Of a DNA stretch of 37,199 bases, positions 30,705 through 31,540 are shown piece after piece (the first letter of the stretch is position 1; every line of letters starts with the position of its first letter). Below the pieces are notes generated by a model, which saw only the letters and a program-made list of their open reading frames with translations, had not been told where the DNA came from and made no database searches. This stretch comes from a virus. Both the position numbers and the translations under genes were made by a program. The stretch covers positions 1 through 37,199 of the IMG/VR virus record IMGVR_UViG_3300044533_001341; one strand, 5' to 3'.

Positions 30705-31340
30705 CTATTTCTGACTCTCAAATATCGTGCGCCAGCGATCAAATGATTCGCGGTCGACAGGGTGTTTCTGCTCCTGCCAGCGGCCGGCCAGGTGCCGGCG
30801 TTCATTTAGATACCAGGCGCCGATCGTCGATTTCTTTACCTTCCAGCCGCGCCGCTCCAGCAGCTCGGCGACCTTGCGGACAGAGGCGCCGCACGCCATC
30901 GCCTGCAGGATGGCGCGTTGCGTGTCGGGCCGTCGCAACAGCTCCGACCAGGTCCAGTCGGCCAGCGAGATCTCGGCGGCGGTCGGCGGGCGCCGGATCT
31001 CGCGGCCCTGGTCGAGCGCGACGTCGGCCAGCAGCGAGACGAACCCGCGGCGCAGCGGCGACGGCAGCCGGGCGATCGTGGCGCCGACCGCCAGCAGGCG
31101 GCAATGCACTAGGTCGGGCGTCCAGCGTCGGCCGTCGGCGTGATCCCAGATCGGATCGGCGATCGCCTCGATCGGCCTGTCAGCCTGGACCGGCGCCGCG
31201 GCTCGATCCCAGACGGCGTGACGCTCTGAAACCAGCACCGCGCGCTCGCCCGGCTGCCGATTGCCTGGGACCGCTGGCACCGGTACAGGCTCCCCGGCCC
31301 CGTACCGCCCCTGTACCGCCTTCCGTACCGGCTTTAACAT
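30705..31340 (-). CDS. DNA-binding protein, possible late regulator
   Basis: A 211-aa protein from the ATG at 31340, preceded by AAGGA. Its N-terminal residues (KPVRKAVQGRYGAGEPVPVP) are coded by the GTACCG repeats of the origin-like cluster. The C-terminal half has an HTH-like segment, TQRAILQAMACGASVRKVAELLERRGWKVKKSTIGAWYLNERRH, then a charged end. It lies between the replication module and HNH/terminase, where many siphophages keep a late-gene activator (ArpU/RinA position), but no family match is certain. An alternative role is binding the repeat cluster that overlaps its own start, as an initiator or autoregulator. Confidence 0.6.
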   Translation of the reverse strand: MLKPVRKAVQGRYGAGEPVPVPAVPGNRQPGERAVLVSERHAVWDRAAAPVQADRPIEAIADPIWDHADGRRWTPDLVHCRLLAVGATIARLPSPLRRGFVSLLADVALDQGREIRRPPTAAEISLADWTWSELLRRPDTQRAILQAMACGASVRKVAELLERRGWKVKKSTIGAWYLNERRHLAGRWQEQKHPVDRESFDRWRTIFESQK

Positions 31341-31540
31341 ATTGATATTCCTTCTTTTTTTGAGAAAACGGGACAGCGGTACAGGGTTTTTGCTGGTTTC
31401 TCTCGTGCGCGCGCGCACCTGTAGTGCCTTCTCCCTCTGGGCCGTACCGCTGTCCCGTTTTTGCCTTTTCCCCTGTCAGGCCAAGGGCTTAGAGGCGGTA
31501 CGGAAGGCGGTACAGGGCCGGTACAGGACCGGTACAGAGG
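31280..31540. other. Nested repeat cluster, candidate replication origin
   Basis: Ten GTAC-centred repeats of consensus CCGGTACAGG (or its complement CCTGTACCGG) lie in about 260 bp, at roughly 31280, 31301, 31311, 31322, 31378, 31444, 31495, 31507, 31518 and 31529. They build nested inverted repeats: an outer 22-bp perfect pair (31309-31330 with 31496-31517), an inner 18-bp perfect pair (31365-31382 with 31444-31461) and a central alternating palindrome GTGCGCGCGCGCAC (31405-31418). A 38-bp AT-rich segment (31331-31368) could unwind. The 208-bp gene gap 31341-31548 lies inside it, just after the helicase gene. Iterons with an AT-rich element next to replication genes are typical of an origin. 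A promoter/operator or partition site is the alternative. Confidence 0.65.

Follow-up and report, generated by a model that had tools for sequence, protein, structure and literature searches.

A symmetric iteron array beside a primase-helicase-like gene as a probable phage origin of DNA replication

In the stretch of viral DNA analyzed in this study (IMG/VR record IMGVR_UViG_3300044533_001341, 37,199 nucleotides, hereafter referred to as the window), the minus strand carries, in this order, a primase-helicase-like gene, approximately 210 bp, a gene encoding a 211-aa helix-turn-helix (HTH) protein, and then TerS-like, TerL, and portal genes. The primase-helicase-like gene (31549..33465, minus strand) encodes a 638-aa protein with a P-loop and a putative SF3/D5/P4-alpha-like core, which we propose as both initiator and iteron reader, and it adjoins a CHC2/Toprim primase. 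The 211-aa gene is located at 30705..31340 on the minus strand. A CII-like transcriptional activator (PHROG 101) lies at the right end of the window (36522-37166). An array of short repeats is found directly 3′ of the primase-helicase-like gene and runs into the 211-aa gene, the first codons of which are covered by one outer array, as the initial annotation had described.

The motif GTAC occurs 20 times in the window, and 10 of these copies fall within 31283-31535, in agreement with the ten repeats in approximately 260 bp first described; the total becomes 13 once GGGAC variants are counted, with 11 GG[T/G]AC sites in a symmetric core and two outside it. CGGTAC/GTACCG reaches 10 copies within 350 bp, compared with 200 dinucleotide shuffles in which no 6-mer exceeded five copies, which confirms the enrichment; the repeats are genuine, and their excess is well past chance. 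Counted from the helicase stop on the gene strand, the sites are ordered R13 R24 R35 R47, F93 F101, R166 R174, F220 F232 F243 (R262 R277), that is, four outer reverse sites in 11-12 bp steps, 46 bp, two inner forward sites 8 bp apart, the centre, two inner reverse sites 8 bp apart, a further 46 bp, and three to four outer forward sites. The outer array adjoining the helicase stop (31497..31535, plus strand) has GGTAC at 31497, 31509, 31520, and 31531 (spacing 12, 11, and 11), and the neighbouring inner pair (31444..31456, minus strand) consists of GGTAC and GGGAC, mirrored by GGGAC and GGTAC at 31370..31382 (plus strand). The outer array that overlies the start of the 211-aa coding sequence (31302..31329, minus strand) has GGTAC at 31325, 31313, and 31302 (spacing 12 and 11), and the two extra sites outside the symmetric core (31267..31286, plus strand) are GGTAC at 31282 and GGGAC at 31267. 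Relatives of the 211-aa protein retain similar repeats in this first-codon region, and residues 1-25 of the protein, encoded over the outer array, are predicted to be disordered. The nested inverted repeats noted earlier are present, the inner one as an 18-bp perfect repeat (31365-31382 and 31444-31461) and the outer one as 44-nt arms that are 89% complementary and contain the 22-bp perfect part, but the arrangement comprises more than these, namely the tandem arrays and close pairs described above.

The gap between the inner pairs is 65 bp in the window, with an alternating (GC)n tract at its centre. This Z-DNA-prone tract, CGTGCGCGCGCGCAC (31404..31418), lies no more than 2 bp from the centre of the array and is the longest alternating purine-pyrimidine run of the whole window; the GC palindrome GTGCGCGCGCGCAC reported previously is located at 31405-31418. 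The 38-bp AT-rich tract that had also been reported was recovered at approximately 31332-31369, with A/T at 29 of 38 positions as counted by eye in a genome of 69% GC. It forms the spacer from an inner pair to an outer array, contains the ribosome-binding site of the 211-aa gene, and is a possible melting site. An Rfam search returned no match.

The 638-aa protein matches PHROG 21086 (E=1.8e-81) and DNA-primase PHROGs, and the P-loop GSGKS and DE motif of its predicted AAA+ core are conserved. The window helicase reached no Pfam family, the first helicase profile, searched against the sequences of solved structures, gave no significant match, and the core profile matched P4 alpha weakly in hhalign (prob 78%). 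Weak structural matches to D5/E5/NrS-1/SaPI5 primase-helicases (Z 3-5) were obtained with a poor AF2 model (pLDDT 54) that is too weak to call the fold, and the order of helices and strands that this low-confidence model gives for the C-terminal domain (CTD) is a secondary-structure order only. The C-terminal pattern is conserved among 22 helicases, and the CTD (approximately residues 510-620; 31606..31938, minus strand) is proposed to be a winged-helix-like DNA reader.

Relatives were collected through searches with the 211-aa protein and the helicase (protein identity 39-56%). Relatives of the window hold the geometry to within a few bases, with distances of 46, 65-71, and 46 bp, pairs spaced at 8 bp, and arrays at 11-12 bp; in two of them (L011 and L017), the word is switched to CG[T/C]TACA throughout, and the geometry and central tract are unchanged. 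The same plan was identified beside helicase relatives in numerous phages and plasmids that are otherwise unrelated, namely alphaproteobacterial phages and prophages, Synechococcus phage MinM1, a human-gut phage contig, Roseobacter phage-plasmids, and Arsenophonus plasmids. Helicase relatives without the 211-aa protein also retain the plan, and the helicase is the sole protein common to all array loci compared. This layout, kept beside the helicase, lends strong support to the iteron-origin reading advanced in the initial annotation, which had suggested a comparison with relatives.

At least 10 different repeat words were found overall, each altered in all clusters at once. MinM1 (L018) carries TGTGAG, with the array adjoining an unrelated NusG-like gene; Phaeobacter and Leisingera phage-plasmids carry GTAAC/GAAAC, Atlantibacter carries GGTAA, and in the human-gut contig GTTAC words flank a long GC/GT alternating centre. 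Three more alphaproteobacterial genome loci have the words GGGACAA, GTAACG, and GGAACG, another genome has related GTAAC/GTTAC words at two loci, and linear Arsenophonus plasmids of 8-12 kb have the four words GGTTGTA, GCTAACA, GGTAACA, and GCATTACA. The Arsenophonus plasmids L025, L026, L035, L036, and L037 share one helicase replicon with four iteron words; they are small and linear, with a protelomerase annotated in most and a terminase small subunit in some, and they resemble remnants of phage-plasmids or satellites.

The alternating tract and the inner gap share their centre to 0-8 bp in almost every GC-rich locus measured; MinM1, with a tract 22 bp off the array centre, is the clear exception. 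Among the 11 loci examined first, the majority have no longer tract anywhere in the locus than the central one. AT-rich Arsenophonus plasmids hold paired TATA/GTGTATA-type alternating stretches at the centre, approximately 30 bp to either side. The centred alternating GC tract is probably an element that responds to supercoiling or is highly deformable and would aid melting or assembly; literature searches combining Z-DNA with iterons or with phage origins gave no relevant hit among the papers covered.

A blind template scan, allowing up to two mismatches per 7-mer, gave the full score of 12/12 at the array locus alone in seven loci, with shuffled sequences of skewed genomes scoring up to 10-11. 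L010, L023-L024, and L027 were missed by the scan, which also tied with other places in MinM1 and is used as supporting evidence only. Beside the distant helicases L019, L021, and L028-L030, no comparable high-scoring array was found by the template scan, nor by the repeat search also conducted for L019 and L021. Following another distant helicase relative, L051 contains mixed GGGACA and GGTACAC repeats (2905-3105), which are possibly an array in mid-transition between two words. Acinetobacter phage Acjo_20 (L020, 1980-2400) has GTTACA iterons in steps of 8 bp together with inverted copies; AT-rich DNA separates them, and they sit upstream, not downstream, of a related primase-helicase gene.

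As the best reading of these comparisons, the array words may be recognized by the helicase's own CTD. The helicases of the Arsenophonus plasmids paNv_CAN17 and paPv13 are 98.1% identical over a 415-residue core and 69% identical over the last 150 residues, and every one of the iterons differs between them (GGTTGTA versus GCTAACA). A partial Mantel test of 20 loci, modest in effect and based on a simple word metric, gave r=0.25 (p=0.0096) for word and CTD given core and r=-0.03 for word and core given CTD. We favour the CTD as the putative reader because the Arsenophonus pair keeps the core and changes both the CTD and all words, and because of the Mantel correlation between word and CTD. This pair also differs in the helicase N-terminus and in a ribbon-helix-helix-like gene upstream, with the caveat that either the N-terminus or the product of that gene might be a co-varying reader, and the word GGTAACA is common to helicases with a CTD identity of 22%, which counts against the CTD. 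A recognition-helix code (KRSQ for GGTAC, KWNQ for GTTAC) was dropped because L042, with the word GTAACG, also has KRAQ.

Taken as a whole, the array is very probably a phage origin of DNA replication, at which a self-loading SF3-like helicase would read iterons beside its own gene. The 8.2-kb linear Arsenophonus plasmids carry the array with five annotated genes, and the helicase is their only recognisable replication protein. Co-resident Arsenophonus plasmids bear different words (paPv13 with paPv15; paNv_CAN17 with paNv_CAN18), as compatibility would require. Cumulative GC skew peaks approximately 1 kb from the array in MinM1, where there is no gene-strand change; in the window, where the same check had been suggested earlier, it is monotonic and gives no signal at the array. 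A Roseobacter phage-plasmid has repAB besides the array, so that the array there may serve lytic replication rather than maintenance of the plasmid.

The initial annotation had proposed the 211-aa HTH protein as the binder. This is probably wrong, considering that the array and its centre persist beside the helicase in replicons without this protein, that the word tracks the helicase CTD, and that the 211-aa model resembles Q21/sigma-4. The top four VIA matches of the model were all Q21 (Z 6.7-7.3 over 109-122 residues), followed by sigma region 4, and Foldseek gave an E of 1.9; the predicted resemblance to the Q21 antiterminator is suggestive only. If the array were instead an operator or antitermination site through which the 211-aa protein controls itself and late genes, the position of the outer array over the gene start and the HTH-like folds predicted for the protein would be accounted for. 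We regard this role as unlikely, given that the array exists without the 211-aa protein in MinM1 (next to a NusG-like ORF) and in the Roseobacter and Arsenophonus replicons, and that a separate conserved direct-repeat element after the 211-aa gene in alphaproteobacterial relatives offers a better target. In the window, this element is TGGACA-N3-TGGACA at 30684-30704, right after the 211-aa stop; most relatives (L004-L017) have one, and in several it overlaps a promoter-like TGGGCA/GGGACA-N17-TAGATT. For the 211-aa protein, regulation of late genes from the 30684-30704 repeats would be a better fit than action at the array. The element following the 211-aa gene is a candidate late promoter, with hexamers 17 bp apart, together with a Q-like binding element. 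Where the TerS-like gene begins, there are additional short direct repeats with a word different from that of the origin array, namely two GGACA copies in the window (30086-30104) and four GGTTCA copies in MinM1 (L018, 6700-6755).

TerS- and TerL-like genes lie immediately downstream of the array in the window, MinM1, and others, as might be expected if the small terminase recognized the array as a packaging site (cos/pac), but in the linear plasmids L036 and L037 the array stays with the helicase in an annotation without any terminase, and in other plasmids it is kilobases away from terS, which leaves a packaging function extremely improbable. Iteron arrays can also have a control role, and the different words of co-resident Arsenophonus plasmids are what incompatibility needs; the array might accordingly be a partition (centromere-like) locus, or a copy-number or incompatibility locus that titrates the initiator, rather than the start site. 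We consider this very unlikely, since a start site would be expected to be symmetric on its two sides and to have a specialised centre, and 6-mer counts and the template scan found no second array-like locus that could be the origin.

For the origin reading, we propose that the CTD of the helicase binds GG[T/G]AC[A/G]G words and that each half-site would consist of an outer array, with one site per helical turn, and an inner pair 8 bp apart. Two opposed half-sites would then nucleate two head-to-head hexamers, one per array half, a step proposed by analogy with PICI, SaPI, and SV40 origins. Around the centre and AT-rich spacer, the hexamers may melt the duplex and unwind it, shearing the DNA between or beside them, with opening starting either at the AT-rich spacer or, under negative supercoiling, at the alternating tract; priming would be performed by the adjacent CHC2 primase.

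Several known origins share parts of this design. The ori of PICIs directly follows rep on its 3′ side, has two iteron sets, and supports autonomous replication (PMC6092414). Similar to PICI/SaPI elements (SaPIbov1, EcCICFT073), the array is located immediately 3′ of the helicase gene, with opposed iteron sets flanking a centre and element-specific words. In contrast to the AT-rich centre of PICIs, the GC-rich phages have a GC-alternating centre and AT-rich DNA in a lateral spacer, and the site order is RRRR FF / RR FFFF, compared with RR F RRR / FF R FF in EcCICFT073; the inner pairs are 8 bp apart, the spacers measure 46 bp, and the centre alternates GC/GT. The carriers also differ, being full tailed phages and phage-plasmids; the window, with its own TerL, portal, and capsid-type genes, is a tailed-phage genome rather than a satellite island with int, stl/alpA, and interference genes. 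The array has the position and the opposed iterons of the PICI/SaPI class, and probably its mode of working, but is set apart by site order, spacing, centre, and carrier and is not counted as a PICI member.

Phage P4 likewise has short iterons in approximately 10-bp steps and both orientations at ori1 and crr, where crr directly follows the alpha helicase gene at its 3′ end; the helicase cores show the weak profile match noted above. P4 differs in having two separate cis sites (ori1 and crr) and a fused primase, without four-cluster symmetry or a centred alternating tract. A 43-bp spacing of opposed iterons recurs in P4 (4323 to 4366 and 9353 to 9396; crr at L031 4291-4590). The SV40 T-antigen origin is built of pentamers flanked by an AT tract and a palindrome and, different from the array, is not known to switch words. 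Repeats in opposite orientation in SaPI and SV40 load two head-to-head hexamers (PMC9894130), and the likeness to the SV40 origin, where opposed short repeats are thought to load two SF3 hexamers in this way, is an analogy only. The Sulfolobus plasmid pRN1 encodes an initiator with a helicase and a winged helix, and its origin is directly 3′ of the initiator gene (PMC4234260), but that origin is a 100-nt stem-loop without iterons. New here are the geometry of four clusters, the placement of a Z-DNA-prone tract at their centre, and the switching of words.

More tentatively, these loci might represent a widespread phage and phage-plasmid origin class of fixed geometry and freely exchangeable words, in which the CTD and approximately 12 iterons would switch together as a specificity cassette and so give rise to new compatibility groups. 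In such a class, a Z-DNA-forming tract at the centre would be a functional component through which negative supercoiling is coupled to origin opening. The geometric signature detects such origins without conserved sequence. Natural pairs are available for testing a joint change of initiator and origin specificity and for studying plasmid escape from incompatibility, and the array poses a clean test of whether or not a Z-DNA-prone tract is functional in a bacterial origin.
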